The notes under the pieces: model-generated | Database searches by the model: none | What the model saw: only the letters and a program-made list of their open reading frames with translations | Told to the model about the DNA's origin: nothing | Program-made: the position numbers and the translations under genes | From: Pseudoselenomonas ruminantium | Lineage (GTDB): Bacteria > Bacillota > Negativicutes > Selenomonadales > Selenomonadaceae | Assembly (NCBI RefSeq): GCF_900113715.1 | Contig: NZ_FOQK01000032.1 | Span: 1 to 35,818, forward strand | Direction of reading: 5' to 3' | DNA: 35,818 nt | In this document: piece after piece, positions 1,955 to 30,767 of the stretch | Layout of the letters: every line of letters begins with the position of its first letter | Numbering within the stretch: position 1 is the stretch's first letter

Positions 1955-1976
1955 GACATAGGGCAAGGATAGATTG

Positions 1977-2020
1977 ACCTGCCGCACCGCCAATCATGGC
2001 GCGCTGCGGCAGGTTTTATT
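1977..2020 (+). terminator. Intrinsic terminator after the hexomutase gene
   Basis: ACCTGCCGCA (1977-1986) pairs perfectly with TGCGGCAGGT (2005-2014), enclosing a second small stem CGCCA/TGGCG, and is followed by TTTATT. It lies 23 bases after the stop codon and separates this gene from the yybS operon. Confidence 0.8.
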
Positions 2021-2033
2021 AGTACCTGCTTTC

Positions 2034-2062
2034 AAGACAGTGATATCCTTTTCTGCTATAAT
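2034..2062 (+). promoter_or_regulatory. Promoter of the yybS-gdpP-rplI-lonC-dnaB operon
   Basis: AAGACA (2034-2039) and TATAAT (2057-2062) are separated by 17 bases, and a TGC directly before the -10 makes it an extended -10 promoter. No other strong promoter is visible until after dnaB, and the following genes are 4 to 19 bases apart or overlapping, which supports one transcript. Confidence 0.65.
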
Positions 2063-2093
2063 GTAGATTGGTTTAGCTAGAAAGGATGACGAC

Positions 2094-3056: not shown

Positions 3057-3067
3057 GGTGAGGCGTT

Positions 3068-5077: not shown

Positions 5078-5492
5078 GAAACTGGGCAAGAAGGGCGATA
5101 TCGTCGAGGTATCCGAGGGCTACGGCCGCAACTTCCTGCTGCCGAAGAAAGCCGCTGTCCTGGCTACGGCTGAGAACATGAACGTCGCCAAGGCACAGGC
5201 AGGCTCCAAGGCCCGCAAGGATGCTATGGCTACGGATGAAGCGAAGCTCATGGCGGCTCAGCTGGAGAAGGTGGAAGTGACGATCCCCGTCAAGATCGGC
5301 GAGGGCGGCAAGCTCTTTGGCTCGGTTACGGGCAAGGATGTTGCAGAGGCACTCAAGAAGAGCAATATCGATATCGACAAGCGCAAGATCTCGATTAAGG
5401 GTGAGGTCACGGGCGCAGGCACCTATGAAGCTGTCATCAAGGTGCATCCGTCGATCACGAGCACGATCAAGATCAATGTAGTAGCTGGCTGA
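5049..5492 (+). CDS. rplI: 50S ribosomal protein bL9
   Basis: A 147-residue protein with the conserved N-terminal MKVILQQDV start, the KKGDIVEVSEGYGRNFLLPKKAA RNA-binding segment written here in two parts (GDIVEV and GYGRNFLLP), and the C-terminal domain ending in INVVAG. It binds 23S rRNA at the base of the L1 stalk. The start is ATG 5049 and not the in-frame ATG at 5040, because AGAGGAG at 5032-5038 is ten bases from the former and only one from the latter, and bL9 begins MKVIL. It lies inside the 3' end of gdpP, so its translation is probably coupled. Confidence 0.97.
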   Translation: MKVILQQDVKKLGKKGDIVEVSEGYGRNFLLPKKAAVLATAENMNVAKAQAGSKARKDAMATDEAKLMAAQLEKVEVTIPVKIGEGGKLFGSVTGKDVAEALKKSNIDIDKRKISIKGEVTGAGTYEAVIKVHPSITSTIKINVVAG

Positions 5493-5496
5493 TATC

Positions 5497-9114: not shown

Positions 9115-10968
<1,854 letters not shown>

Positions 10969-10982
10969 GGATTTTTAGCAAG

Positions 10983-11010
10983 AAGGCCTTCCTCATACGG
11001 GGAAGGCTTT
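10983..11010 (+). promoter_or_regulatory. Hairpin between scrA and scrB
   Basis: AAGGCCTTCC (10983-10992) pairs with GGAAGGCTTT (11001-11010), including one G-T pair, around an eight-base loop. No T-run follows, so it looks like an RNA stability or partial attenuation element, not a full terminator; the two genes are probably one transcript. Confidence 0.45.
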
Positions 11011-11035
11011 CCGTGCCGGAAAGGGGATGTTTGTT

Positions 11036-12490
11036 ATGGAAAAATTCGATAAAGGCGCTATCGATGCCGAGCTGGCACAGGGATTCCCCCTTAAGCACCG
11101 CTGGCATAACCGCTTCCATCTGGAAATGCCGTTTGGCTTGATCAACGATCCGAATGGCCTCACGTACCATGACGGGGCGTATCACATTTTCTATCAGTGG
11201 AATCCGCTGGGCTGCGAGCATAAGAACAAGTGCTGGGCCCATGTGAAGACGCGCGACTTCGTGCATTATACGCTGCCGGAGCTGGCGCTCTGGCCCGATG
11301 ATGTGCACGACAAGGACGGCTGCTATTCGGGCTGCGGTCTTTCGCAGGACGGCAAGCTGCGCGTGCTCTACACCTGCAACCGCAAGGAAGATGGTGTGCG
11401 CATTCCGGCCCAGCGCTTCGGAACCTTGCAGGACGATGGCAGTGTCCGCAAGGAAGAGATCATCATCCCGGATCATCCGGAGGGCATCACGGGTCATTTC
11501 CGTGATCCGTTCCTCTTTGAGCGTCGTGGGCATCGCTATCTGGTCATCGGTGCGCAGCGGGAGGAAAATGAGACGGGTACGGTGCTTGTCTATGAGGAGC
11601 GCGAGGACGGCTGGCATAATCGCGGCGAGGTGCATACGCGCCTGGGCGATTTCGGCTATATGTGGGAATGCCCGAACTTGCTGCAATTCGGCAGCTATGA
11701 TGTGCTGGTGTTCTGCCCGCAGGGCCTGGCGGCGCGTGAATACGACCGCCAGAACATCTACCAGGCCGGCTATATCGCAGGCCATCTGTCCCTTGACAGC
11801 ATGGACATGATGCAGCACACGAAGTTCCAGGAGCTTGACCGCGGGTTTGATTTCTATGCGCCGCAGGTCTTTGAGCACGAGGGCCGCCATCTGCTGCTTG
11901 GCTGGATGGGGATGCCCGACAAGGACGATGACTATCCGTCGAAGGAGCACGGCTGGATGTACAGCCTGACCCTTCCGCGGGAGCTGCGCTTGCGGCAGGG
12001 CCACATCTACGCGCGGCCGGCGCGTGAGCTGCGTGACCTGCGTATCCAGGAATCAGCGGTGGAGGTTGATAAGACTGAGGCGGCTGGTTTCAACCAGCCG
12101 CTGTTCGAAGGCTCCGAAAGCTTGATGGAACTCGAGCTTGGCGAGGCCAAGCGGGTGGAAGTCGTGCTCCGGTATGGCCTGGAGAAACTGGCCTTCCGCT
12201 ATGACCGGGAGCAGCAGGTCATGACCATCGACCGCGAAGGCATGAAGCGCGGCGGCCGCGGGCAGCGGCAGTTCAAGATGTTCGTCGACCAGTCCCTGTC
12301 GTTGCAGCTGTTTGTCGACAAGACTGCCGTAGAGGCCTTCTTCCAGCATGGCGAGGAAGTAGCGAGCCTGCTGGTCTTCCCTGAGAAGAACATCCAGCCC
12401 GAGCTGGAAATCACGGCCGATGCGCCGCTGGCAGCCATCACTGGCAAGATCTGGGAACTTGATTCGTTCAAGTTCCAGCTGAATTCATAA
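11036..12490 (+). CDS. scrB: Sucrose-6-phosphate hydrolase (GH32)
   Basis: Cleaves the sucrose 6-phosphate made by the PTS into glucose 6-phosphate and fructose in the cytoplasm. The three GH32 catalytic residues are visible: the nucleophile Asp38 in GLINDPNG, the transition-state Asp in GHFRDPF (about 158), and the acid/base Glu in MWECPNL (about 210). The C-terminal beta-sandwich follows (about 340-484), including the SLQLFVDKTAVEAFF strand pair. There is no signal peptide, as expected for the intracellular enzyme. The start at ATG 11036 is nine bases from AGGGG (11022-11026); an ATG at 11027 is too close to be used. The length of 484 residues is normal for the family. Confidence 0.93.
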   Translation: MEKFDKGAIDAELAQGFPLKHRWHNRFHLEMPFGLINDPNGLTYHDGAYHIFYQWNPLGCEHKNKCWAHVKTRDFVHYTLPELALWPDDVHDKDGCYSGCGLSQDGKLRVLYTCNRKEDGVRIPAQRFGTLQDDGSVRKEEIIIPDHPEGITGHFRDPFLFERRGHRYLVIGAQREENETGTVLVYEEREDGWHNRGEVHTRLGDFGYMWECPNLLQFGSYDVLVFCPQGLAAREYDRQNIYQAGYIAGHLSLDSMDMMQHTKFQELDRGFDFYAPQVFEHEGRHLLLGWMGMPDKDDDYPSKEHGWMYSLTLPRELRLRQGHIYARPARELRDLRIQESAVEVDKTEAAGFNQPLFEGSESLMELELGEAKRVEVVLRYGLEKLAFRYDREQQVMTIDREGMKRGGRGQRQFKMFVDQSLSLQLFVDKTAVEAFFQHGEEVASLLVFPEKNIQPELEITADAPLAAITGKIWELDSFKFQLNS

Positions 12491-15015: not shown

Positions 15016-16368
15016 TTGCGCATCGTAGTAGTGGGCGCTGGCAAGCTGGGGTACAGTATTGCTGAGCTGTTATCAAAAGAACAATTTGATGTAATTGTCG
15101 TCGATCAAGACGAAAATCAGCTGGAGGCGGCGAAGAATACGCTGGATGTATTGACGATTGCGGCCAATGGCGCAAGCCCGATTACCATGAATGACCCCGA
15201 TATCCGTGATTCGGATATCTTGATTGCCGTCACGGCCAGTGATGAGGTGAATATGGTCAGCTGCATCCTGGCCAAGAAGCATGGCATCAAGCATACGATC
15301 GCGCGCATCCGTGATATGCAGTTCATGAGCGAGGCCAAGGATTATCTGAAGCAGAATTTTGATATTGACCTCATGCTCAATCCGGAGCTCATCACGGCCA
15401 ACGAGATCAACCGCATCTTGATGACGCCGGCAGCGCTCGATGTCGAGGATTTTGCCCATGGCAAGATCCGCTTGTTCGAGACCAAGGTGCAGCGCAAATC
15501 ACCGCTGGCGCGCATCCCGCTCAAGGAAATCCAGCTGCCGAAGGGCGTGCTGGCTGGCATGATCTTCCGCGACCACCGCATGATCATCCCCCATGGTGAT
15601 GACTGCCTGCTGCCCCATGACAATGCGTATTTCATCGGCATCCCCGAGGAGATCGAGAAGTTCAGCCAGAGCTTTGTTCAGCGCGATGCACGGAAACTGC
15701 ACCGCGTGCTGATCATCGGTGCTGGCCGCGCGGGACGGGCTTTGGCGGCGATGTTCGATAAGCAGGATGTTCATGTCAAAATCATTGACCAAGATCGTGA
15801 GCGCTGCCAGCAGGTGGCGGCACAGCTGGTCAATGGCATCGCCATCTGCGGCGATGGCACGGATATCGACCTGTTGCTTGAGGAGGGTGTGGCCGAGGCC
15901 GATGTCGTGGTCTGCCTGACGGAGGATGATAAGCTCAATCTGATGCTGGCGCTCTTGGCGCGCCATCTGTCGGGCAATAAGACCAAGACGGTGGTGCGTG
16001 TAGCCCGCAACGAATATGTAGAGCTCATGGAGAAAGTCGGCGTCGATATCGTTCTGTCGGCACGCCTGCTCTCGGCCAGTGAGGTGCTGGCCTTTGCGCG
16101 CCGCGGCGGTGTCGTTTCGGTTTCGCTGCTGGAGGGTGCTAAGGCTGAGGCGGTTGAAGTCATCGTCCAGCAGGGGGCACCGGTGGCTGGCAAGCGGCTC
16201 ATGGATGTCAAGCTGCCGCGCGAGTGCCTGGTCTGCGCCTATGTGCGTGATGGGGAGGCAGTCATCCCGAATGGTAATACGGTACTCCAGCCTGGTGACC
16301 GTACGATATTGTTTATCCAGACGAAGTTTTCGCAAAAGGTCATCCAGTATTTCAAAGGCAAGGAGTAG
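15016..16368 (+). CDS. trkA: Trk potassium uptake regulatory subunit TrkA
   Basis: The cytoplasmic nucleotide-binding gate of the TrkH potassium channel. The 450 residues contain two tandem RCK units: the first Rossmann domain starts VVGAGKLG at residue 5, followed by TrkA_C (about 135-215), and the second starts IIGAGRAG near residue 234, followed by a second TrkA_C (about 370-450). This double-RCK layout is that of TrkA, not of the single-unit KtrA. The start codon is TTG 15016, with GAGGGG (15003-15008) seven bases upstream. Only three bases separate it from the first trkH. In some Firmicutes TrkA_C domains bind c-di-AMP, the substrate of the gdpP product here; whether this one does is not visible. 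Confidence 0.93.
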   Translation: MRIVVVGAGKLGYSIAELLSKEQFDVIVVDQDENQLEAAKNTLDVLTIAANGASPITMNDPDIRDSDILIAVTASDEVNMVSCILAKKHGIKHTIARIRDMQFMSEAKDYLKQNFDIDLMLNPELITANEINRILMTPAALDVEDFAHGKIRLFETKVQRKSPLARIPLKEIQLPKGVLAGMIFRDHRMIIPHGDDCLLPHDNAYFIGIPEEIEKFSQSFVQRDARKLHRVLIIGAGRAGRALAAMFDKQDVHVKIIDQDRERCQQVAAQLVNGIAICGDGTDIDLLLEEGVAEADVVVCLTEDDKLNLMLALLARHLSGNKTKTVVRVARNEYVELMEKVGVDIVLSARLLSASEVLAFARRGGVVSVSLLEGAKAEAVEVIVQQGAPVAGKRLMDVKLPRECLVCAYVRDGEAVIPNGNTVLQPGDRTILFIQTKFSQKVIQYFKGKE

Positions 16369-16371
16369 TCT

Positions 16372-17847
16372 ATGGTTCTGACGGAAAAAGGCAATGGCTG
16401 GGAGCTTTTTTGGCTGCTCATGGGGCGTATTGCGACTGTAATGGGACTGGCGATGTTCGTGCCCTTTGCGTCGGCGCTTGCCTGGCGTGAGCCCGAGGCC
16501 TGGCTATTCTTGCTGCCTGCTGGCTTTTCGCTGGCACTGGGGACAGGGATGGCGCGGCTCGGCGCTGAGCATATGCGCCAGCTGGCGATCCGCGAGGGCG
16601 TCCTGTTCATGGTACTGGTCTGGCCGCTCATGGGCTTTGTCGGCCTTATGCCATACTATATCTCAGGGCTGCTGCCGGATTTTTCGGCAGCTTTTTTTGA
16701 GACTGTCTCGTCGCTGACGACGACGGGGCTGTCGTGCCTGCCCTTCGATCCGCTGGGGCTTCCCCGTTCGCTGCGCCTTTGGCAGGCCATCATGAACTGG
16801 ATCGGCGGGCTGATGTTTGTCGTTGTGCTCGTCACAGTCCTGCCGCAGGTCAGCGGCTGTTTTGGTCTGACGCTGACGGCCCGGCAGACCATCTTCTTCA
16901 GTCCGGTGTGGAACCGCATGAGCCAGTCGGTGCATCAGGGTGTGAGCGTCTATGCACTGCTGACGCTGCTGGCGGCAGTGCTCTTCTATCTGGCGGGGCT
17001 GCCGGCTGAGGAGTCGCTGATGCGCGGCATGATAGCGTTGTCGTCAAGCGGTGGCAGCTCGGTGACGAGCTTCATGGTGTACGACAATGGCTGGCTGGAA
17101 CTGGCGGCGGGTATTGCAATGGTGCTGGCGGGCATGAACCTGCTGCTCTGCTGGAAGGCTTGGAACCGCAGGAGCGTCTGGCTGCTATGGCAGGATGCCG
17201 AATTGCGCGGCTTCTTTGCCATCCTGGTGGCAGCAGGCCTGGCAATCTCCCTGCATCTTTACGCGATGGACTGCTATACGCTGCCCAATAGCCTGCGGTA
17301 TGGTTTTTTCCAGGTGGCCTCGTTCCTGTCGACCAATGGCTTTGCTTCGGCGAGCTTTTGGCTCTGGCCGGATTTTGATCGGTATGTGCTGTTCCTGCTC
17401 GTATTTGTGGGTGGCTGCATCGGCTCGGCGGGCGGCGGCCTCAAGGTCATGCGCATCCTTGTGCTTTTCCGCATGACGCGGGCCGAGATCCATCGGACGC
17501 TGCATCCCCATATGGTAGTAAGCGTCAAGGTGGATGGCTTGCCGGTACCGGCCAAGATCGTGGGGCGCATCCTGGCGTTCTTCTTCCTGTACATGATGAT
17601 CTTCGTGCTGTTTTCGCTGATATTGTCGGGGGCAGGGCTCGACCTCATGCAGTCGATGGGACTGGCTGCGGGCTGCCTGACAAGCACGGGTTCGACGGCG
17701 GCCTTGGTGGGGCTGGGCAATCTGCATTTCCTGCCGGTATGGGCCAAGCTGGCCTGCTGCCTGCTCATGATCCTTGGCCGCATTGAGATTTTCTCGTTTC
17801 TGATTCTGCTGGATCTGGGCGCGCGTGCCGTGCGTCAGAAATGGTGA
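16372..17847 (+). CDS. trkH: TrkH-family potassium channel subunit, divergent filter
   Basis: A 491-residue membrane protein of the TrkH/KtrB superfamily with about ten helices and four pore loops. The filter segments are TTTG (about 115), SSGGSS (about 225), STNGF (about 319) and TSTGS (about 437). Compared with the next gene, the second and fourth loops differ from the usual GTGGF and NVGP forms, though each still has its key glycine. It may therefore have altered ion selectivity, or form a heteromer with the second TrkH; both are inference. It is translationally close to trkA (three-base gap) and to the next gene (three-base gap). Confidence 0.85.
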   Translation: MVLTEKGNGWELFWLLMGRIATVMGLAMFVPFASALAWREPEAWLFLLPAGFSLALGTGMARLGAEHMRQLAIREGVLFMVLVWPLMGFVGLMPYYISGLLPDFSAAFFETVSSLTTTGLSCLPFDPLGLPRSLRLWQAIMNWIGGLMFVVVLVTVLPQVSGCFGLTLTARQTIFFSPVWNRMSQSVHQGVSVYALLTLLAAVLFYLAGLPAEESLMRGMIALSSSGGSSVTSFMVYDNGWLELAAGIAMVLAGMNLLLCWKAWNRRSVWLLWQDAELRGFFAILVAAGLAISLHLYAMDCYTLPNSLRYGFFQVASFLSTNGFASASFWLWPDFDRYVLFLLVFVGGCIGSAGGGLKVMRILVLFRMTRAEIHRTLHPHMVVSVKVDGLPVPAKIVGRILAFFFLYMMIFVLFSLILSGAGLDLMQSMGLAAGCLTSTGSTAALVGLGNLHFLPVWAKLACCLLMILGRIEIFSFLILLDLGARAVRQKW

Positions 17848-17850
17848 CTT

Positions 17851-19302
17851 ATGGATTTACGAATCGTTTATTATATCCTGGGACGGCTGGTGGTCGCGGA
17901 GACCGCTATCATGCTGATTCCGTTCTTCATCTCCCTGTATAATGGCGAGGAATGCACCGCTGGCTTTGCCGCCGCCTTGGCGATCTGCGCGTTGGTGGGG
18001 ATCGAGCTGCGGCTGCATGGCCGTGTGCGCGTCGAGCGGCTGACCATGCGTGAAGGTGTGGCCATCACAGGCATTGGCTGGATCTTGGCGACATCGCTGG
18101 GGATGCTGCCATATCTCTGCGGTGGTTATCTGGGGCTCCTCGATGCGTTGTTTGAGAGCATCTCGGGCTTCACGGGGACGGGGGCTACGGTCATGGAGAA
18201 ACTGTCTTCCCTGCCGTCGGCCATCCTGTTCTGGCGCATGATGACGCATTGGTTTGGCGGTCTGGGCATCATCGTCATTTTCATCGCCCTGCTGCCGCAG
18301 ACGGGCCAGAGCACCATCTATATGTATAATGCGGAGACGACGGGGCCGACGCGTGAGCGCGTACTGCCGCGGCTGCGGGATATGACCAAGACGCTGTTCC
18401 AGATGTATATGATCTTTACCGTAACGGCAACGGTCATCTACATGCTGTGCGGGCTGTCGCTGATGGAGGCCAGCACGCATGCGCTGAGCACCATCGGTAC
18501 GGGCGGTTTCTCGACTTACGATGACAGTGCGATGCATTTTGACAATGTGCCGCTGGAGGCCTGGATGACATTCTTCATGATCCTGGCCGGGGGCAATTTC
18601 GGCCTTTATTATCGCATCTGGCGCAAGGGGCCGGGGGTCATCCGGCACAATACGGAATTCAAGGCCTATATCGGCCTTGAGCTGGTGGCCATGCTGCTCA
18701 TAGCGGTCAATCTTGTCCAGGCTATGGGGGTAAGTCCGGCCGAGGCAATCCGCTATGCGAGCTTCCAGGTCGGGTCGATTTCGACGACGGGGTTTGTCTC
18801 GACTGACTTTGACCAGTGGCCGGGCTTCTCCAAAGGTGTGCTGCTGCTGTTGATGGTCTGTGGCGGCTGTGCCGGCTCGACCGCCAGTGGTGTCAAGGTG
18901 AGCCGTATGGTACTGCTGGTCAAGAATGCCTGGGCTGTTGTGCATCAGAAGCTTTCGCCGCGGCGTGTCGTCGAGGTCCGCATGAATGGCGGCAAGGTGG
19001 ATGAGGATACCTTGCTGCGCGTGGGGCAGTTTTTCTTTCTGTATATATTCTGCATTGTGTTTTTTGCCTTGCTGCTGACGTTGGATGGCGTGTCAATCTT
19101 CGATTCGCTGGGCATCAGCATGACGGTCATGGGCAATGTGGGGCCGGCCTTTGGCGTGGCGGGGGCAACCTGCACCTATGCGGGGGCCTCGGTGTTTGCC
19201 AAGAGCATCCTGTGCGTGGAGATGCTCTTGGGGCGTTTGGAGATGTTTACCCTGCTGGTCATGCTTTCGCCGGATTTCTGGCAGAAGGGCAATCGCTGGT
19301 GA
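17851..19302 (+). CDS. trkH: TrkH-family potassium channel subunit, canonical filter
   Basis: A second TrkH paralogue of 483 residues directly after the first. Its pore loops are canonical: TGTG (about 108), IGTGGF (about 214), STTGF (about 310) and NVGP (about 428). It also has the conserved MTHWFGGLG segment following the first pore region. It should form the main potassium-conducting dimer gated by TrkA. The two paralogues are clearly related along their whole length but far from identical, so the duplication is not recent. The stop codon is followed after 27 bases by an AEC-family gene that may be cotranscribed. Confidence 0.92.
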   Translation: MDLRIVYYILGRLVVAETAIMLIPFFISLYNGEECTAGFAAALAICALVGIELRLHGRVRVERLTMREGVAITGIGWILATSLGMLPYLCGGYLGLLDALFESISGFTGTGATVMEKLSSLPSAILFWRMMTHWFGGLGIIVIFIALLPQTGQSTIYMYNAETTGPTRERVLPRLRDMTKTLFQMYMIFTVTATVIYMLCGLSLMEASTHALSTIGTGGFSTYDDSAMHFDNVPLEAWMTFFMILAGGNFGLYYRIWRKGPGVIRHNTEFKAYIGLELVAMLLIAVNLVQAMGVSPAEAIRYASFQVGSISTTGFVSTDFDQWPGFSKGVLLLLMVCGGCAGSTASGVKVSRMVLLVKNAWAVVHQKLSPRRVVEVRMNGGKVDEDTLLRVGQFFFLYIFCIVFFALLLTLDGVSIFDSLGISMTVMGNVGPAFGVAGATCTYAGASVFAKSILCVEMLLGRLEMFTLLVMLSPDFWQKGNRW

Positions 19303-21240: not shown

Positions 21241-21319
21241 ATGACATTTGTCATGTTCTTTGGCTGAAAACTCATGACAGAATTCAGCTGACTTTGACCG
21301 TGTTTTCTATTATTATAAT
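21241..21319 (+). promoter_or_regulatory. Control region of the mannose-class PTS operon
   Basis: ATGACA (21241-21246) and TGTCAT (21249-21254) form a palindrome, and CTCATGACAG (21271-21280) repeats the half-site. The latter 10-mer is identical to one at 23791-23800 before the sensor operon. TATAAT (21314-21319) is a likely -10, but the nearest TTGACC (21294-21299) is only 14 bases away, so the promoter probably needs an activator. I did not find a convincing sigma-54 site. The response regulator encoded at 26144 is the obvious candidate ligand; this is inference. Confidence 0.5.
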
Positions 21320-21407: not shown

Positions 21408-21899
21408 ATGGAAATCGCATTTTGCCGTATCGACGATCGTCTGATCCACGGCCAGGTGGCTACGGTCTGGACGAAGGTTACGGGGTGCAACCGCATCATG
21501 TGCTGCAGCGATGAGGTCGCCAAAGATGACATGCGCAAGAAACTCTTGCTGCAGGTGGCACCACCGGGAATCAAGGCGTATGTCGTACCGGTTGAGAAGG
21601 CTTGCGAGGCTTACAAAAATCCGAAGTACGATGCGTTCAAGACGCTGTTCCTGTTCACGAAACCGGCTGATGTTGTCCGTGCGGTCAAGGGTGGTATCCC
21701 GTTCAAGTCGGTCAATCTTGGCGGCATGACCTATAAGGATGGCGATACGCTGATCTCGAGTGCTGTTGCGGTCAATCCGGACGATGTCAAGGCACTGCTT
21801 GAGTTGCAGGATATGGGCATTGAAGTTGAAATCCGTAAACTCGCCAATGAGCCAAAAGGCAACCTCATGGATGCTTTGAAGGCTAAAGGCATGGCTTGA
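21408..21899 (+). CDS. PTS mannose/fructose/sorbose-class EIIB component
   Basis: A 163-residue cytoplasmic protein that carries the phosphoryl group from EIIA to the sugar. The phosphorylated histidine is His14 in RIDDRLIHGQV, the hallmark of the mannose-class EIIB fold, and SVNLGGM near residue 105 is also typical. It opens a IIB-IIC-IID set. No EIIA-Man domain is fused to it or encoded nearby, so phosphate must come from an EIIA encoded elsewhere. A six-codon frame (ATG 21373 to TGA 21393) lies in the leader; I do not count it as a gene. The ribosome site is AAAGGGGA before ATG 21408. The sugar cannot be specified. Confidence 0.93.
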   Translation: MEIAFCRIDDRLIHGQVATVWTKVTGCNRIMCCSDEVAKDDMRKKLLLQVAPPGIKAYVVPVEKACEAYKNPKYDAFKTLFLFTKPADVVRAVKGGIPFKSVNLGGMTYKDGDTLISSAVAVNPDDVKALLELQDMGIEVEIRKLANEPKGNLMDALKAKGMA

Positions 21900-22003: not shown

Positions 22004-22807
22004 ATGACTTCTGTACAGTTTATTTTACTGATTATTGTCGCAGCGATTGCCGGCATGGGAAGCGTACTCGATGAGTGCCAGTTCCATCGTCCGCTCGTTG
22101 CTTGCACACTCGTTGGACTTGTACTTGGTGATATTACGACAGGCATTATTCTTGGTGGTACGCTGGAGATGCTGGCGCTGGGCTGGATGAACGTCGGTGC
22201 GGCTATGGCACCGGATGCGGCTTTGGCTTCGGTCGTTTCGGCTATCCTCGTCATTGTCGGTCATCAGAGCATCGGCGCTGGTATCGCACTGGCTGTCCCA
22301 CTTGCTGCTGCTGGCCAGGTTCTCACGATCTTCGTCCGTACGATCACCGTATTCTTCCAGCATCTGGCTGATAAGTTCGCCCTTGAGGGCAATGCCTTCG
22401 GCATCGAGATGTGCCATGTCGGCGGTCTGCTGCTGCAGGGCATCCGCGTTGCCGTTCCGGCTGCTATCATCGCAGCAGTTGCTGGCACGGACACGGTCAA
22501 TGCTATGCTGGCTTCCATCCCGGAAGTTATCACGCGCGGCTTGCAGGTTTCCGGTGGTTTCATCGTCGTTGTTGGTTATGCAATGGTCATCAACATGATG
22601 AATGCCCAGTCTCTGATGCCGTACTTCTTCCTTGGCTTCCTCATTGCCGTATTCACGAACGTCAACCTCATTGGTTTCGGTGCTATCGGCCTTATCTGCG
22701 CTTACTTCCACATCCGTGGCCTGCAGCGTGAGCTCAATGCGGCTGCAGCTGGCAATGGTGGCTCGGGCAATGCACTGGATGACATTGACGATTCGGATCT
22801 GATGTAA
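22004..22807 (+). CDS. PTS mannose-class EIIC membrane component
   Basis: A 267-residue membrane subunit of the mannose-family PTS; with EIID it forms the sugar translocation path. It shows the conserved N-terminal DECQFHRPLVACTLVGLVLG region followed by GGTLEMLALGWMNVGAAMAPD, the family signature, and several hydrophobic helices to about residue 240. The C-terminal tail is acidic (DDIDDSDLM). The gene ends 14 bases before the EIID gene. Confidence 0.94.
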   Translation: MTSVQFILLIIVAAIAGMGSVLDECQFHRPLVACTLVGLVLGDITTGIILGGTLEMLALGWMNVGAAMAPDAALASVVSAILVIVGHQSIGAGIALAVPLAAAGQVLTIFVRTITVFFQHLADKFALEGNAFGIEMCHVGGLLLQGIRVAVPAAIIAAVAGTDTVNAMLASIPEVITRGLQVSGGFIVVVGYAMVINMMNAQSLMPYFFLGFLIAVFTNVNLIGFGAIGLICAYFHIRGLQRELNAAAAGNGGSGNALDDIDDSDLM

Positions 22808-22821
22808 GGGGAGGTACAGTC

Positions 22822-23646
22822 ATGGAAAAGAAACTTACTAAAGGCGATCTTGTATCGATTTTTATCCGTTCGAACTTCCTGCTCGGCTCCTTCAACTTCG
22901 AGCGTATGCAGGCTATCGGTTTCTGCGTTTCGCTGATTCCGGCACTCAAGAAGCTGTATAAGGATGATCCTGAGGAGTATAAACGCTCCCTCAAACGTCA
23001 TCTTGAATTCTTCAACACGCAGCCGTTCCTGGCAACGCCGATCATGGGCATCATCGCGGCTATGGAGGAGAAGAAAGCCAATGGCGCGGAAATCGGTGAG
23101 GACACCCTCTCCGGCGTCAAGGTTGGTCTTATCGGCCCACTGGCCGGTGTCGGCGACCCGATTTTCTGGGGTACGCTGCGTCCGGTCCTGGCAGCTCTCG
23201 GTGCAGGTATCGCGCTGACGGGCAGCATCGTCGGCCCGTTGATCTTCTTCGTTGCGTTCAATGTCATCCGTCTGCTGACCAACTGGTACGGCGTCATGTA
23301 CGGCTATGACAAGGGCACGGAGCTTGTCAACGAGGTCGGCGGCAACCGCATGCGTTACCTCACGGAAGGTTCTTCGGTACTCGGTTTGCTCGTCATGGGC
23401 GCACTCGTAGCGAAATGGACGTCGGTCAACATGCCGATGGTACTGTCGTCGTATACGAATAGCCAGGGCGATCAAGTCGTGACGACTGTCCAGAGCCTGC
23501 TTGACAGCTTGATGCCTGGCGTAGTGCCACTTCTGATGACGTTTGCCTGCATGTGGCTGCTCAAGAAGGGCGTCAATCCGCTGCTTATTATCCTTGGCCT
23601 GTTTGCGCTTGGCATCGTTGGCTATGCGATTGGCCTCTTTGCGTAA
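22822..23646 (+). CDS. PTS mannose-class EIID membrane component
   Basis: A 274-residue protein completing the permease. It has the typical soluble N-terminal part (SFNFERMQAIGF, then HLEFFNTQPFLATPIMGI) and the conserved GPLAGVGDPIFWGTLRP motif near residue 110, followed by C-terminal helices. Ribosome site GGGGAGG lies before ATG 22822. A terminator follows at 23734, so the transcript is IIB-IIC-IID. No EIIA gene is present. Confidence 0.95.
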   Translation: MEKKLTKGDLVSIFIRSNFLLGSFNFERMQAIGFCVSLIPALKKLYKDDPEEYKRSLKRHLEFFNTQPFLATPIMGIIAAMEEKKANGAEIGEDTLSGVKVGLIGPLAGVGDPIFWGTLRPVLAALGAGIALTGSIVGPLIFFVAFNVIRLLTNWYGVMYGYDKGTELVNEVGGNRMRYLTEGSSVLGLLVMGALVAKWTSVNMPMVLSSYTNSQGDQVVTTVQSLLDSLMPGVVPLLMTFACMWLLKKGVNPLLIILGLFALGIVGYAIGLFA

Positions 23647-23733: not shown

Positions 23734-23765
23734 AAAGAGCTTTGCCGCAAGGCAAGGCTCTTTTT
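23734..23765 (+). terminator. Terminator of the mannose-class PTS operon
   Basis: AAAGAGCTTTGCC (23734-23746) pairs with GGCAAGGCTCTTT (23751-23763) over 13 positions with one G-T pair and a GCAA loop, then T residues. It separates the PTS operon from the sensor operon, so any coordination between them must act in trans. Confidence 0.9.
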
Positions 23766-23780
23766 GTTGAGAAACAATAG

Positions 23781-23818
23781 GTCATATGTCCTCATGACAG
23801 CGGGTTTTGTGCTATAAT
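23781..23818 (+). promoter_or_regulatory. Promoter and candidate operator of the sensor operon
   Basis: TATAAT (23813-23818) is preceded by TGC, an extended -10, with no good -35. In the -35 position lies CTCATGACAG (23791-23800), identical to the box at 21271-21280, and GTCAT (23781-23785) faces ATGAC (23794-23798) across eight bases. The box lies 12 bases before this -10 and 33 before the PTS -10, a difference of 21 or about two helical turns. Binding by the response regulator is inference. Confidence 0.5.
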
Positions 23819-23850
23819 TGGAGCATAATGATTGAGAAAGGCGGAGTTTG

Positions 23851-24819
23851 ATGGACGCACGGGAAAAATATTTCTGGGGGCTCGTGGGCGCGATGTGCTT
23901 AGGGCTCTTGCTGCTGAGCTTGCTGCATGTGTCAAAGGGGGACCTTTCCGCACGGCAGAATGAGCACCGGCGCAAGCTCGGGGCTGTCTATATGACGCTA
24001 AATAATCCCTTCTATGAAGTCGTGGATGAGGAAATCCGGACAGTAGTAGAGAATCATGGGGATGTGCTGATTTCGCGTGACCCTGCCTTATCGGTTGACC
24101 GCCAGCGGGAGGAAATCCGTGAGCTTATTGCTGAGGGTGTAGAAATCATCTTCATCAACCCTGTGGATTGGAAACGCATCGAACCAGCCTTGGAGGATGC
24201 CTATGCGGCTAATGTGCCAGTCATCGCCATCGATACGAGCGTGCAGGATGAGAAATATGTGGCTTGTACCGTCATGTCGGATAACTATGTAGCTGGTGTA
24301 CAGTGCGCCCAGCATTTGCTGGCAGTTTCGCAAGGCGGCCAGATTGGCTTGCTCAAGCACTCGCAGGCGCATTCCTCTGTTGACCGCATACAGGGGTTCA
24401 AGGACACGTTGGCGGGCCATCCGGAGTTTCAGATTGTCGATGAGGAGGAATGCCTCGGACAGCTTGAGCTCGCGATGCCGGCGATGGGACGTATCCTGGA
24501 GCGTCATCCTGATGTATCCATCGTCATGGCGCTAAACGATCCGGCGGCTATGGGGGCCCTGGCAGCGCTGCAGAGTGCGGGACGGCTTGATACGGTGATG
24601 GTCTATGGCGTCGATGGTGTGCCTGAGACGAAGGAAATGATCCGGCAGGGGCATATGACGGCTACGGTGGGGCAGTCTCCGCGCCAGATCGGCCGGCGGG
24701 CAGCGGAGCAGGCTTACCGGCTGCTGGCTGGTGAGGAAACGGAGCGGGTCATCCAGCTGACGACGCAGCTGTTGACGCGCGATAGGCTGCTGACCGAAGA
24801 TAAGGAGGGCTGGAACTGA
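23851..24819 (+). CDS. Membrane-anchored RbsB-like sugar-binding protein
   Basis: A 322-residue periplasmic binding protein of the type I (ribose/galactose-binding, LacI-like) fold. An N-terminal hydrophobic segment (about 9-27) has no lipobox and no clear cleavage site, so it probably stays as a membrane anchor. The fold follows: LGAVYMTLNNPFYEVV (about 43), a region IIFINPVD (about 98), PVIAIDTSV and IVMALNDPAAMGALAAL (about 226). No ABC ATPase or permease is nearby; the kinase gene starts two bases after its stop. This resembles XylFII-LytS and similar three-component systems in which a binding protein presents sugar to a kinase. ATG 23851 follows GGCGGAG by five bases; an in-frame TTG is at 23848. 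Confidence 0.82.
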   Translation: MDAREKYFWGLVGAMCLGLLLLSLLHVSKGDLSARQNEHRRKLGAVYMTLNNPFYEVVDEEIRTVVENHGDVLISRDPALSVDRQREEIRELIAEGVEIIFINPVDWKRIEPALEDAYAANVPVIAIDTSVQDEKYVACTVMSDNYVAGVQCAQHLLAVSQGGQIGLLKHSQAHSSVDRIQGFKDTLAGHPEFQIVDEEECLGQLELAMPAMGRILERHPDVSIVMALNDPAAMGALAALQSAGRLDTVMVYGVDGVPETKEMIRQGHMTATVGQSPRQIGRRAAEQAYRLLAGEETERVIQLTTQLLTRDRLLTEDKEGWN

Positions 24820-24821
24820 GC

Positions 24822-26147
24822 ATGAAGGTAGATTTTGAAATGCTGAAGGAGAGGGACCGGATTGCGGGCCTTTATCGTTTGCTCAGTATCTACAATGGCT
24901 TGGTCGTATTTCTGATGGCTGGCTTTATGAGCATTACGCAGGAGAAAATCATCCAGAGTATGTCGGCGCGCTCTTTCCTGGAGACGCTGCCAATCGTGCC
25001 ACTGCCTGCTGGCAAGGGATTTTCCTTATCGATGGGGTCGTTTTTTGTGCTGGTCCTGCTGGGGCATCTTTATCGGCGGGATACGCTCAGTGATATGATG
25101 CGCTATTTGGTGTTCCTGGCTGAAATCACTGCCTGCATGCTGCTTATGCGCAGCCTGAATCTTGCTTATGATGGTGTTGTCCTGCTGGTCGTTGCCGATC
25201 TTATGCATCGCTATCAGGGCAAGAATCAGAGCTGGCTGCTGGTGGGCGCTATGTTTGGCCTTTATTGTATTGCCAACTATAATCTGGCGATTTTCCAAGG
25301 GCATGTGGCGCCGTTCGATGCCTATACTTCGTATTATAAATCATCGGTGCAGGCTATTCTCATTGCCGTGAAGAATGGTTTTGTCTCGCTCAATATCATC
25401 TTGTTCGTGTCCTACCTTGTGCTGCTCGTGCAGAGCAAGCATCAGGAGAAGGAGCGCATTGCCAGCCTCAATACGCAGCTGGGCGAGGCCAATGAACGCC
25501 TGCGGATTTATGCTATCGAGGCAGAGCGTATGGCCGAGACGCGGGAACGTAATCGTCTGGCGCGGGAAATCCATGATACGCTTGGCCATGCGCTGACTGG
25601 TATCGCTGCGGGGCTTGATGCCTGTCTTGTGCTCGTTGATGCGGCACCAGAGGCGGCCAAGAAGCAGATGGCTAAGATCCGCGAGACCGCGCGTCGTGGC
25701 ATTGTCGATGTGCGCCGTTCGGTCGAGAAGCTGCGCCCCGATGATCTGGAGAAGCTGCCGCTGCGCCATGCGATTGCGCGTATGGTCGCGGAGTTTGCGG
25801 AGTCATCGAATATGAAAATCCGTGTGATTGCCTTAGGCTGGCCAGATAATCTGCGTGAAGATGAGGAGGAAGTCATCTATCGCGTCGTGCAGGAGGGCAT
25901 CACCAATGCCAACCAGCATGGTAAGGCCACTGAGGCGACCGTAACGATTGGCACGGAGCCTGGGCGCAATTACATCATCATTGCCGACAATGGCCATGGC
26001 TGTGAGGATGTTGAGCCAGGATTTGGCCTGCGCCATATGCAGGAACGGCTTGATTTGCTGCATGGGCGGCTGCGATATTGGAGTGACAATGGCTTTACTT
26101 TGGAGGCCACGATACCGGCGGGGACGAGACGGGAGGAGAACGAATGA
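24822..26147 (+). CDS. Sensor histidine kinase, HisKA_3 (NarL/LiaS-type)
   Basis: A 441-residue kinase. About six membrane helices (around 21-39, 71-84, 93-110, 115-128, 137-158, 186-204) leave only short outside loops, so it has no sensor domain of its own. A coiled coil (about 207-243) leads to the phosphorylated His251 in REIHDTLGHAL, the HisKA_3 signature, then the ATPase: N box EGITNANQHG (358-367), G1 box ADNGHG (388-393) and GFGLRHMQERL (400-410). The lack of an extracellular domain fits input from the anchored binding proteins encoded on either side. It overlaps the response regulator gene by four bases (ATGA), so the pair is translationally coupled. Confidence 0.92.
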   Translation: MKVDFEMLKERDRIAGLYRLLSIYNGLVVFLMAGFMSITQEKIIQSMSARSFLETLPIVPLPAGKGFSLSMGSFFVLVLLGHLYRRDTLSDMMRYLVFLAEITACMLLMRSLNLAYDGVVLLVVADLMHRYQGKNQSWLLVGAMFGLYCIANYNLAIFQGHVAPFDAYTSYYKSSVQAILIAVKNGFVSLNIILFVSYLVLLVQSKHQEKERIASLNTQLGEANERLRIYAIEAERMAETRERNRLAREIHDTLGHALTGIAAGLDACLVLVDAAPEAAKKQMAKIRETARRGIVDVRRSVEKLRPDDLEKLPLRHAIARMVAEFAESSNMKIRVIALGWPDNLREDEEEVIYRVVQEGITNANQHGKATEATVTIGTEPGRNYIIIADNGHGCEDVEPGFGLRHMQERLDLLHGRLRYWSDNGFTLEATIPAGTRREENE

Positions 26148-26815
26148 TAAAGGTAGTGATTGCCGATGATCAGGAGCTTATCCGCGAGAGCCTGAAGATC
26201 GTATTGGATCAGAATGTGGACATGGAAGTGACGGCGCTGGCTGAAAACGGCCGGCAACTTATGGATATACTCAAGGTGAGCCAGCCGGATGTCATCCTGA
26301 TGGATGTGCGTATGCCGGAGCTTGATGGTGTACAGGCTACCAAGGCAGTCAAAGAGCTTTATCCTGCGGTCAAGATCATCATCCTTACGACTTTCGATGA
26401 TGATGAATATGTATTCAATGCTTTGAAGTACGGAGCCAGCGGGTATTTGCTCAAGGGCGTATCGGTGCCGGATCTTACGAATGCAATCCGCACGGTCGTA
26501 AGTGGTGGTGCCATGATCAATCCGGGGGTGGTGGCCAAGGTGGTCAAGCTGTTCAACCAGATGGCCAAGAACAACCTGAGCGTCGAGACTGGTACCAGCG
26601 GTGCCGAGGATCTCACGCGGACGGAGCGCAATATCGCGCATCTGGTTGGCCATGGCCTTTCCAACAAGGAAATTGCCGAGCGGCTGAGCCTTTCAGAGGG
26701 GACCGTGCGCAATGGCCTTTCGAATGCGCTTTCCAAACTGGATTTGCGTGACCGCACGCAGCTGGCAATCTGGGCTGTGCAGACGGGGCTTGCAGCTGCG
26801 GAGGTGGAGCTCTGA
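26144..26815 (+). CDS. Response regulator, NarL/FixJ family
   Basis: A 223-residue DNA-binding regulator. The receiver domain has the acidic pair Asp9-Asp10, the phosphorylated Asp54 in LMDVRMPELDG, Thr in LTTFDD and Lys in LLKG. The C-terminal LuxR-type helix-turn-helix (about 158-215) carries LTRTERNIAHLVGHGLSNKE and the recognition helix LSEGTVRNGLS, slightly unlike the usual GTVKNHVS form. It is the partner of the kinase immediately upstream. The shared CTCATGACAG boxes before the PTS and sensor operons are its most likely targets, which is inference. Its stop codon overlaps the next start by one base. Confidence 0.94.
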   Translation: MIKVVIADDQELIRESLKIVLDQNVDMEVTALAENGRQLMDILKVSQPDVILMDVRMPELDGVQATKAVKELYPAVKIIILTTFDDDEYVFNALKYGASGYLLKGVSVPDLTNAIRTVVSGGAMINPGVVAKVVKLFNQMAKNNLSVETGTSGAEDLTRTERNIAHLVGHGLSNKEIAERLSLSEGTVRNGLSNALSKLDLRDRTQLAIWAVQTGLAAAEVEL

Positions 26816-28125
26816 TGCGGGGCGATGTCAAGCGCCAGTTGTTGCTGCTGGCTGTGGCATTGTTGCTGCTTTTAGCTGGGATGCTGGCTTATCAGCAGCA
26901 GAAAACTGTCGAGCTGCGGGTCGGGGTGTTTGCCGGCAGCAATTGGGATGTTCCTGATGGCGATTCCTATGCTGTTGTCGAGGCGGCAATCAAGCGCTTC
27001 GAAGCGAAGCATCCTGGCGTAAAGGTAACGTATGTAAGCGGTATCAAAAAAGAAGATTATTCCGAATGGCTGGCCGAAAAGCTGCTGGCGGGAGAGGAAC
27101 CGGACGTCTTTGTTGTGCCAGGTACGGACTTCAATATGTATGCGGCTATGGGAGCTTTGCAGGATCTGTCAGATTTTGGCAATCAGGACAAGCAGTTTTC
27201 CTGGGATGTCTATTATCCGGCTGCACTGGATTATGGCCGTTATGATGGCCGTGCTTATGGGCTGCCCGTTACGAGCGTGCCGACGCTGATGTTTGTCAAC
27301 AAGACGCTGCTGGCCCGGGAGGGAATTGCGATTCCAGGCAACGACTGGACGTGGCAGGACTTCCTGGAAATCTGCCGCCGCGTCACAAAGGATACCGATG
27401 GCGATGGCGTGCTTGATCAGTTCGGTTTTTATGATTACGATTGGAAACTTGCCGTCGTGACGAATGGCGTAGAGCTGTTTCGTGAGGACGGGCGCGCTTC
27501 GTATTTTGCCAGCAGCCGCATGGAGGAGGCCGTGCAGTTCCTTTTGCAGTTGCATAATGCGCAGCGGGGGCGCGAAGTCACAGCGAAGGATTTCGATATG
27601 GGCCGTGTGGCGTTCCGGCCGTTTACCTTTGCAGAATACAGAACGTATAAGCCTTACCCTTGGCGTATCAAGAAATATAGTTCCTTTGAATGGGATTGCA
27701 TCAAATTGCCGGCCGGGCCATCAGGCGATAATGTATCAAACCTGCAGACGATGCTTATGGGCATGAGTGCTAAGTCTGGGCACAGGGAATTGGCATGGCT
27801 GCTGCTGAAAGAAATCTGCTATGCGCCGGAAAGCCAGCAGCTCATGCTGACAAAGACGCAGGGCCTGCCATCGCGGCGTGACGTGGTAGAGGCAGATACC
27901 TCGCAGGCTTTATTTGCAGCCAATGCACCGGGTTGTGAGGAGATGAATCTCCGGGTGGTCAGCGAGGTTATGGAGCGGGCTGTTATGCAGCCAAGGTTTA
28001 AGGGATATGATGAGGCGATGCTGCGTGCCAATAATGAATTGCAGCAGGTCATCACAGGTATCGTTCCTTTCAATAATTCCCTGAATAAACTGCAAAAAGA
28101 AATCAATGCTTATTTACAGCAATAA
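26815..28125 (+). CDS. Membrane-anchored family-1 extracellular solute-binding protein
   Basis: A 436-residue protein of the maltose-binding-like (SBP_bac_1) fold. The N terminus is a hydrophobic helix (about 8-25) with no lipobox cysteine and no obvious cleavage site, suggesting a permanent anchor. Mature-type motifs include VEAAIKRFEAKHPGVKV (about 52-68), PDVFVVPGTD, a region YGLPVTSVPTLMFVNK (about 145) and DTDGDGVLDQFGF (about 198), typical of sugar-binding members. No permease or ATPase gene is present. It starts within the stop codon of the response regulator, so it is made with the two-component system and probably works in sensing, perhaps as a second input or a decoy ligand store. 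Its exact role is unknown. Confidence 0.82.
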   Translation: MRGDVKRQLLLLAVALLLLLAGMLAYQQQKTVELRVGVFAGSNWDVPDGDSYAVVEAAIKRFEAKHPGVKVTYVSGIKKEDYSEWLAEKLLAGEEPDVFVVPGTDFNMYAAMGALQDLSDFGNQDKQFSWDVYYPAALDYGRYDGRAYGLPVTSVPTLMFVNKTLLAREGIAIPGNDWTWQDFLEICRRVTKDTDGDGVLDQFGFYDYDWKLAVVTNGVELFREDGRASYFASSRMEEAVQFLLQLHNAQRGREVTAKDFDMGRVAFRPFTFAEYRTYKPYPWRIKKYSSFEWDCIKLPAGPSGDNVSNLQTMLMGMSAKSGHRELAWLLLKEICYAPESQQLMLTKTQGLPSRRDVVEADTSQALFAANAPGCEEMNLRVVSEVMERAVMQPRFKGYDEAMLRANNELQQVITGIVPFNNSLNKLQKEINAYLQQ

Positions 28126-28145: not shown

Positions 28146-28697
28146 ATGATGGTTCAACACAAGGCACCAGTAGAAATCGAACGGAAATGGATGGTCAATG
28201 GCTGGCCGGAAGGTTTGCCCGCTAAATTGGCCTTTGAGCAAAAGATGCGCCAGGGCTATGTATCTGTTCGGCCGACGGTGCGGATTCGCGAGGAGGAAAC
28301 CACCTGGACAAACTGTACCAGTAAACCGTTGGAGGCAGAGTATATTCTTTGTTTCAAGTCCAAAGGGAAACTGGCGCGCAAGGAAGTGGAGCTGCCGATT
28401 CCCGCCGGTAAATTCGGCGAGCTGGAGGATCTTATTGACGCGCCTCTGATCGAAAAAGTACGACGTACCTATGAGCTGGCCGATGGCCTGCGGCTGGAAG
28501 TGAATCATGTAGATGGCGGCTCGCCGTCGGAATTCTGGTATGCGGAAGTGGAGTTTGCAAGTGTCGAGGCGGCGCGGGCTTTTGATCCGGCTGCCGTTGG
28601 CCTGGGGGCCTATCTCGTGGATGATGTGACCGATCAGCCGGGACAATCCATGGGCGACTATTGGGAGTCGACCCGGTTGCATTCCTTGGACAAATGA
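28146..28697 (+). CDS. CYTH-domain protein (triphosphate tunnel metalloenzyme family)
   Basis: A 183-residue protein with the CYTH signature ExExK near the N terminus (EIERKW) and the alternating charged strands of the tunnel: VRIREE (about 50), YILCFKSKG (about 70), KEVELPI, KVRRTYEL, LRLEVN and YAEVEF. Relatives hydrolyse inorganic triphosphate or thiamine triphosphate, or form cAMP (class IV adenylate cyclase); bacterial stand-alone forms are most often tripolyphosphatases. The charged motifs look complete, so it should be active. It lies 20 bases after the second binding protein with AAGGAG six bases before ATG 28146, so it may share the transcript. Any link to sensing is unproven. Confidence 0.85.
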   Translation: MMVQHKAPVEIERKWMVNGWPEGLPAKLAFEQKMRQGYVSVRPTVRIREEETTWTNCTSKPLEAEYILCFKSKGKLARKEVELPIPAGKFGELEDLIDAPLIEKVRRTYELADGLRLEVNHVDGGSPSEFWYAEVEFASVEAARAFDPAAVGLGAYLVDDVTDQPGQSMGDYWESTRLHSLDK

Positions 28698-30296: not shown

Positions 30297-30767
30297 TTAC
30301 TTTGTATAGCTAAGTACAGTGTCTGTGCCACAGGTTACCAGCTGGTCAGGCGCTATGGCTGTAAGATTCCGCACCGTTTCGTAATTGACGATGAGCAATG
30401 GCGAAATCAGGTTGATTTTGCGTTTCTGCAGTAGCGGCAGGTCGAGTTTCAAGATGGGGTCGCCTGCCTTGACCTGATCGCCGCGCTGATGGAGCGGCGT
30501 AATGCCTTCGCCATTCATAATGACCGTGTCAAGCCCGACGTGGACGAGTATCTGCACGCCATCGTCCGTGGTGATGGCAAAGGCATGCTTGGTGTCGAAG
30601 AAAAGTGAGATCACACCATCGCATGGTGCGATTACGGTATCACTTTCGGCTACGATCGCCAAGCCGTCACCAGTCAGTTTTTCTGAGAAGACCGGGTCGG
30701 GCACGGTAGCAAGATCCATTGTTTTGCCGGACATGGGTGCTATGAGTTGCTGCTTTGGTGTTGTCAT
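30297..30767 (-). CDS. crr: Free-standing PTS EIIA, glucose type
   Basis: A 156-residue cytoplasmic phosphocarrier. The two active-site histidines are His61 in FFDTKHAFAI and the phosphorylated His76 in LVHVGLDTV. It lacks EIIB and EIIC domains. Stand-alone EIIA-Glc can phosphorylate EIIBC permeases of the glucose superfamily and, in some bacteria, regulates other permeases. In this window the only such permease already carries its own EIIA (about 40% similar by eye around the active site), so partners probably lie elsewhere. It cannot supply the mannose-class EIIB at 21408, which uses a different EIIA fold. It is monocistronic, converging with dcuC. The gene symbol is by analogy. Confidence 0.92.
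   Translation of the reverse strand: MTTPKQQLIAPMSGKTMDLATVPDPVFSEKLTGDGLAIVAESDTVIAPCDGVISLFFDTKHAFAITTDDGVQILVHVGLDTVIMNGEGITPLHQRGDQVKAGDPILKLDLPLLQKRKINLISPLLIVNYETVRNLTAIAPDQLVTCGTDTVLSYTK

Follow-up and report, generated by a model that had tools for sequence, protein, structure and literature searches.

LevQRST of Streptococcus mutans is a four-component system in which the operon levTSRQ is followed by levDEFG, coding for a phosphotransferase system (PTS) of the mannose family. The passages of the source drawn on here describe LevQ and LevT as membrane-associated, with no ATP-binding cassette (ABC) transporter nearby, LevQ as essential for output, and the LevS region of transmembrane (TM) helices TM4-TM5 as insertion-sensitive and in need of LevQ; loss of LevT lowers the induction by fructose and mannose, reduction of LevT to its membrane anchor results in a negative signal, and the system also controls fruA, a secreted fructanase (PMC3043104). 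LevQRST-like operons are listed there for streptococci, lactobacilli, Clostridium acetobutylicum and Dorea, and a survey covering mutans streptococci assigns, in its pertinent part, LevS to HPK7 and LevR to the NarL type (PMC3353171). The present analysis concerns a four-gene unit at 23851-28125 of a 35,818-nucleotide stretch of Pseudoselenomonas ruminantium (contig NZ_FOQK01000032.1; the whole stretch is hereafter the window), and this unit is very probably a four-component system of the LevQRST type, with two anchored, periplasm-facing substrate-binding proteins (SBP1 and SBP2), a kinase with six predicted TM helices and a NarL-type regulator. The host is Selenomonas-like and, unlike S. mutans, diderm.

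Other described systems share single features with the unit. The two-component systems gbs1934/5 and Spy1061/2 of group B and group A streptococci likewise lie beside a mannose/fructose-family PTS, directly upstream of it, and are implicated in its control; binding proteins are not mentioned in the passages of the source used (PMC2660347). In CuaDSR of Ruminiclostridium cellulolyticum, the sensor kinase has an SBP reserved for sensing as its partner, as proposed here; the relevant passages describe a single lipoprotein SBP for sensing, a class-I kinase whose two TM helices enclose a long outer section, and an AraC-type regulator, in a system serving an ABC transporter (PMC10384115). The unit, in contrast, combines two SBPs with a GerE regulator and a kinase of six predicted TM helices and short loops, and does not belong to the CuaDSR type. 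An SBP signals to the kinase also in XylFII-LytSR, which consists of a single XylF-like SBP, a LytS kinase and a YesN-type regulator; a unit of two SBPs, a HisKA_3 kinase and a GerE regulator falls outside it as well. XylFII-LytSR is mentioned in the passages on CuaDSR (PMC10384115). FspSR proved a dead end as a comparison.

Comparison of the four-gene unit with LevQRST

The unit is encoded on the plus strand by the genes of SBP1 (23851-24819; start codon ATG at 23851, alternative TTG at 23848), a LevS-like sensor kinase (24822-26147), a LevR-like NarL/LuxR-type response regulator (26144-26815) and SBP2 (26815-28125). A first-pass annotation, made from the letters of the window, had listed these four genes with gaps of 2, -4 and -1 bases, and this spacing is confirmed; the start of 23781 given there lies about 70 bp upstream of the first gene. 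Its description of the proteins as RbsB-like, NarL-type and MBP-like is borne out by Pfam and by profile matches to solved structures. SBP1 matches Peripla_BP_4, with the ribose-binding proteins 2ioy and 7e7m as best solved structures, and SBP2 matches SBP_bac_1/8, with the arabino-oligosaccharide-binding protein 6rjy as the best; the kinase displays HisKA_3 (PF07730) and HATPase_c, and the regulator Response_reg and GerE (PF00196).

As in LevQRST, a two-component pair is flanked by two ABC-type sugar-binding proteins in the order T-S-R-Q, and both of these carry an N-terminal membrane anchor, as judged from a hydrophobic helix without a lipobox. The kinase is of the HisKA_3 type, which we take to be equivalent to HPK7, the regulator is of the NarL type, and a mannose-family PTS lies adjacent. 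ABC permease and ATPase genes, reported as absent from the surroundings, are indeed absent among the 29 window proteins scanned with Pfam; they accompany the unit in 7 of the 112 loci examined, all of them distant relatives. The window differs from LevQRST in that the PTS operon lies upstream rather than downstream of the unit, with no IIA gene next to it, and in the six TM helices predicted for the kinase, as against up to five described for LevS in the passages cited (PMC3043104).

The occurrence of two binding proteins in one unit had been regarded as unusual. LevQRST, however, already has two, of different folds, around one two-component pair, which rules out the notion of an unprecedented two-SBP unit. 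The proposal that both act with the kinase in one signalling unit is upheld by the conservation of the unit and by this precedent. The further suggestion of one activator and one antagonist fits only loosely, as in S. mutans LevQ is essential, LevT loss lowers induction and it is the LevT anchor alone that gives a negative signal (same passages of PMC3043104).

The correspondence of the single proteins is suggested, indirectly, by the LevQRST residues quoted in that source, which were compared with five loci and evaluated against shuffles (L194, L195, L168, L200 and L192). In L194, a relative found with the window profile, the kinase displays all six LevS residues that the source quotes, under the same numbers (equalled by 0 of 20000 shuffles), and four of the four LevQ residues recur in SBP2 at an offset of +3 (1 of 20000 shuffles). 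Five of the six LevS letters are also found in both L195 and L168. Since the LevQ letters fit SBP2 of L194 in 4/4 positions and its SBP1 in 1/4, SBP2 is taken as LevQ-like; SBP1 is LevT-like by position.

Distribution of the unit and its candidate operator

Within the order, 83 of 189 genomes have the kinase at an E value of 1e-30, counting the window's own genome and a match to the kinase domain only in G048. A profile of the kinase membrane domain alone matches 91/380 genomes of the class and 10/398 of the phylum, and 5/147, 1/17 and 19/148 genomes in three other orders. Of the 112 loci examined, 83 belong to the order (82 genomes), 12 to other families and 17 to two of the other orders; 13 of the 19 matched genomes of one of the other orders were covered, leaving out G938, G946, G978, G986, G993 and G1016. 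The standard order SBP1-kinase-regulator-SBP2 on one strand is displayed by 93 of the 112 loci, and the rearranged order kinase-regulator-SBP2-SBP1, followed by CUT2 ABC genes, by seven. A search for the four-gene order had been advised in the first-pass annotation, and all four genes recur in 100/112 loci, more than by chance; the presence of the complete unit in 71/83 loci of the order and in 29/29 from other groups marks the system as widespread.

Among the 12 remaining loci, four are cut by a contig end (L038, L059, L082, L091), L074 has a deletion, L078 is a kinase without neighbours, and L083, L085, L086, L088 and L089 are kinase-regulator pairs, the kinase of L089 also lying at a contig start. 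The match L090 (G048) was set aside as outside the family, being confined to the kinase domain and not among the sensor-domain matches, and is still counted in the 112. Damaged units were also observed: SBP1 is broken in L067 and SBP2 in L097 and L197, and L074 lacks SBP1 and has a short regulator. G069 carries a second kinase fragment, on C150, outside the loci examined. In genus g7 of the window's own family, the units L084 and L087 have PTS genes downstream and kinases that group with L192 of another order in the kinase tree, which suggests horizontal transfer of these units.

In the window, the mannose/fructose/sorbose-family PTS genes are on the plus strand and encode IIB (21408-21899; PF03830, TIGR00854), IIC (22004-22807; PF03609, TIGR00822) and IID (22822-23646; PF03613, TIGR00828), ending about 200 bp 5' of SBP1. 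No IIA gene adjoins them among the window proteins, in contrast to several g11 loci with a IIA-like frame 5' of IIB; the rest of the genome was not searched for one. The unit had been described as lacking any transporter, which holds for ABC genes but not for this PTS, and lone binding proteins without any transporter are ruled out by the adjacent PTS and the common palindrome 5' of it. PTS genes lie within the fetched stretch of 67/93 standard-order units (71/112 loci overall), and of the 26 units without them, 15 have a PTS orthologue elsewhere in the genome, with the exact palindrome. Only one of the 22 genus genomes, G157, is without the kinase, and it has just a 61% PTS paralogue. The earlier view of the PTS genes as the likely target is supported by this linkage, by the common palindrome and by the LevQRST precedent in the passages of PMC3043104.

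The palindrome TGACATTTGTCA at 21242-21253 (plus strand), 166 bp 5' of the IIB start, is likely to be the LevR operator, as judged from its conservation 5' of transporter genes across families; a further half-site, TGACAG, lies beside it at 21275-21280. By chance, 0.95 matches at up to one mismatch are expected in the window, where the single site is not significant, so the evidence for the operator is comparative. The palindrome ATGACAWWTGTCAT is evident in the aligned PTS upstream regions of the genus, also where the PTS lies apart from the sensor genes. Of 54 kinase-bearing genomes, 53 have TGACANNTGTCA within 900 bp 5' of IIB, as an exact copy in 39 and with one mismatch in 14; the reversed pattern occurs at 0-1 mismatch in 0/58. 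None of four kinase-free genomes with a PTS orthologue has an exact copy of the palindrome, and one has it within one mismatch. This count covers the 58 loci with an IIB match of >60% identity from residue 1 or 2 and leaves out others, including L224 from a fifth kinase-free genome. It supersedes an earlier 300-bp motif test, exact in 36/58, that missed genus g11 and others. Most g11 loci have a one-mismatch variant, at 570-690 bp 5' of IIB, and in the five of these that were inspected, site and IIB are separated by an open frame (144-149 residues) resembling a mannose-type IIA.

Each of the 20 PTS-linked loci outside the order has a site at 0-1 mismatch 5' of its PTS genes, mostly directly before a IIA gene or in a shared divergent promoter; in L162, L163, L165 and L166 the distance to the first PTS gene identified is some 500-1100 bp. 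Of the seven ABC-linked loci, five carry the site 5' of the kinase (six on assuming a later start codon for L158), and three carry it 5' of the ABC genes, in the interval from SBP2 to SBP1. Altogether, 36 loci contain 65 sites at 0-1 mismatch as compared to 8 for the reversed pattern. The window's own genome has five exact sites, namely that of the window, three inside open frames and one just 5' of a DUF134 gene, and no wider regulon is seen from these exact sites. A candidate operator of this kind allows target genes to be predicted from sequence.

Several observations weigh against assigning the window unit to the LevQRST type with the PTS as its target. The link to LevQRST was made through relatives and the residue letters quoted in the passages of PMC3043104, not through S. 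mutans sequences. L194 is the best case; L200 and L192 match 3/6 LevS letters, a score often reached by shuffles, and the LevT letters lend no support, with 2/3 in L194, a score attained by 2227 of 20000 shuffles. The window PTS lacks a neighbouring IIA gene. Among the 26 PTS-less units, 11 have no PTS in the sequences fetched, L048 has both unit and PTS without the palindrome within 900 bp, and a PTS orthologue (at least 75% identity) occurs without the kinase in six genomes elsewhere in the family (G001, G048, G049, G068, G092, G120).

Relatives associated with other transporters

The seven ABC-linked loci (L157-L161, L164, L167) form one clade, with support of 100/100, in a kinase tree built from 58 of the 112 loci without the window's own kinase and rooted for drawing only. 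Their SBP1 gene is followed by genes of a CUT2-type ATPase and a BPD_transp_2 permease (Pfam on L159, L164 and L167; permease match in 7/7). SBP1 displays a canonical lipobox in 6/7 of these loci and a cleavable-looking signal in L167, and SBP2 retains an N-terminal hydrophobic stretch without a lipobox in 7/7. Cognate ABC permease genes, which the first-pass annotation had named as refuting its interpretation, are therefore present in distant relatives, and none are seen in the window lineage. The clade fits a transport binding protein turned pure sensor, or the reverse, the tree being unrooted, and these relatives are likely to represent the link between the two, which makes them a natural comparison for how a transport binding protein becomes a sensor.

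A different association is found in genus g3 (L083, L085, L086 and L088; e.g. L086 at 1703-6028 and L085 at 4278-4805), where LevS-LevR is kept, an exact palindrome lies just 3' of the regulator gene and no LevT is alongside. A glucose-family IIA match follows the palindrome in L083, L086 and L088, and in L086 it belongs to a sucrose-type PTS IIABC with an adjoining gene of glycosidase family GH32. LevQ is represented in L085, L086 and L088 by an open frame of 157-179 residues, in which the anchor, a first-lobe segment and a short tail are kept, and the fourth g3 genome has a similar LevQ fragment; the best LevT-profile matches in the four genomes are weak (E 1e-21 to 1e-24). LevS-LevR with a cut-down LevQ is possibly a reduced form of the system.

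Taken together, these arrangements moderately favour the reading that the LevS-LevR-LevQ core and the TGACANNTGTCA operator constitute a portable sensing module, whose transporter has been switched between ABC (LevT in a dual role), mannose PTS (LevT for sensing only) and glucose-family PTS (LevT lost, LevQ a remnant). Accordingly phrased as a course of events, LevT of the ABC clade, a lipoprotein or secreted, would serve both transport and sensing; in the window and others the anchored LevT would only sense, uptake being left to the mannose-family PTS; and in one genus the module would have passed to a sucrose-type PTS of the glucose family, with loss of LevT and with LevQ shortened to a remnant. 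If true, a binding protein has retired from transport and yet kept its place in the signalling complex. In the best-ranked open-access papers, LevQRST is not described for Selenomonas, nor do these papers contain the TGACANNTGTCA operator palindrome, the ABC-linked relatives or the g3 genus without LevT and with a shortened LevQ.

Sensor proteins, alternative explanations and neighbouring genes

The kinase has six predicted membrane helices before its catalytic part, as indicated by hydropathy averaged over 29 homologues and from a predicted model (predicted local distance difference test score, pLDDT, 76.8; predicted template modelling score, pTM, 0.48), the overall arrangement of which is uncertain. 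Two outer loops are conserved, at residues 38-62 (consensus TQxKIxxSMxARSFLxxxPxxPxP) and about 160-172 (consensus FQxxVxPFxAYxxYY). The kinase had been annotated as lacking a sensor domain; what it lacks is just a named one, as the Pfam scan returned no family above cut-off in this conserved six-helix membrane domain. A tblastn search of the kinase against plasmids returned 28 records, all at <60% identity.

The N-terminal helix without a lipobox that had been noticed in both binding proteins of the window is kept across the loci without ABC linkage: a hydrophobic stretch is present in 93/93 SBP1 and 78/80 SBP2 sequences, and strict lipobox matches are confined to 1/93 and 2/80, respectively. 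The predicted model of SBP2 (pLDDT 90) displays an anchor helix at residues 3-29, followed by a sugar-binding-protein fold. By sequence, both binding proteins appear to be membrane-anchored with the binding domain outside. Conservation was read from alignments A1-A4, of 28-29 chosen sequences each. In A2, residues N51, N52, Y55, D128, R179, N229, D230, D255 and Q275 of SBP1 are invariant; they correspond to most of the sugar-contact positions of RbsB, and a nearly invariant T129 stands at the position of R90 in RbsB numbering. With most contact positions invariant and T in place of R90, SBP1 is probably still able to bind a sugar. Many residues of SBP2 are invariant as well, e.g. Y278 and P280-W283.

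In the proposed mechanism, an extracellular monosaccharide, most likely fructose or mannose, would bind SBP2 and/or SBP1, the anchored binding proteins would change their contact with the kinase through the short outer loops and TM helices, and the phosphorylated regulator would bind the palindrome and raise PTS expression. Gene content and order, anchor-like N-termini, their conservation, the conserved palindrome and the PTS link are observed in the data, and from S. mutans we infer the complex, its inducers and activation, and the roles of SBP2 as essential partner and SBP1 as modulator; the mechanistic steps beyond gene content, anchors and palindrome conservation are of the same inferred kind. 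It can now be tested which sugar each SBP recognises and how two SBPs are integrated by a kinase that exposes so little surface to the outside; the natural variants for such tests include the form with a LevQ remnant only.

It is conceivable, though doubtful, that just one binding protein is a working sugar sensor and the other, having lost sugar binding, a cofactor with a structural or inhibitory role. The presumed sugar-contact positions of SBP1 and the many invariant residues of SBP2 argue against this, as does the retention of both proteins in 100/112 loci; T129 in place of the presumed R90, and genus g3 with no LevT beside the kinase and a cut-down LevQ, would suit it, and so would the greater importance of LevQ than of LevT in S. 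mutans, as given in the passages of PMC3043104. Sensing of the canonical three-component kind, with the second binding protein as a bystander or transport component, is hardly credible. An SBP beside a two-component pair does occur in CuaDSR, but CuaR has an AraC-type domain where the window regulator is NarL-type, and in CuaS two TM helices enclose a long extracytosolic stretch where the window kinase has six predicted helices and short loops (passages of PMC10384115); moreover, both SBPs co-occur across the loci. XylFII-LytS, in which an SBP likewise accompanies a two-component pair, belongs to the same alternative.

The alternative that the palindrome belongs to another regulator, the four-gene unit controlling something else, is unlikely. 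The four exact own-genome sites outside the window, three of them in open frames, and the one-mismatch variant of most g11 loci are in line with it; the palindrome, however, tracks the unit across the PTS of distant subfamilies (L072, L162, L187-L206), ABC operons (L157, L160, L167) and the g3 glucose-family PTS, and the excess of sites over the reversed pattern (65 against 8) and the kinase-free genomes (0/4 exact, 1/4 within one mismatch) point the same way. Highly unlikely, too, is that an ABC transporter encoded elsewhere in the genome also makes use of SBP1 and/or SBP2, so coupling transport and sensing. The seven distant relatives with CUT2-type genes after SBP1 and a CUT2-type transporter on contig C46 of the own genome would allow for it, but that transporter has its own Peripla_BP_4 binding protein, the other BPD_transp_2 permeases adjoin Peripla_BP_6 (C41) and ABC_sub_bind (C25) proteins, and SBP1 has no lipobox. 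The five BPD_transp_2 matches of the own genome fall in these three loci, none of which adjoins the sensor genes; the search did not extend to permeases of the CUT1 type, with which MBP-like proteins usually work.

Between the PTS and sensor operons, a terminator-like hairpin with 13-nt arms (one mismatch), a GCAA loop and a T run is read from the sequence at 23734-23765 (plus strand), and on account of this hairpin the PTS and sensor genes are suggested to form two separate transcripts; a hairpin scan of the region returned only a shorter hairpin, on the minus strand (23755-23742). Farther upstream, at 9124-12490, the window carries a glucose-family (sucrose-type) PTS IIABC gene followed by a GH32 glycosidase gene, like the pair beside the palindrome in L086. 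No exact palindrome occurs at this pair; LevQRST controls fruA as well, whereas the GH32 gene of the window, 9 kb upstream, has no such exact site. At 15016-19302, a TrkA-type gene precedes two distinct potassium transporter genes of the TrkH type in tandem. Directly 3' of SBP2, at 28146-28697, lies the gene of a 183-aa protein with no Pfam match at 1e-3, which only four of the order's 83 loci, L092-L095, possess. The minus strand carries, at 30297-30767, a glucose-type IIA gene that stands alone; in relatives such as L093-L095 and L100-L108, a glucose-type IIA gene lies nearer the 3' end of SBP2, convergent with the unit.

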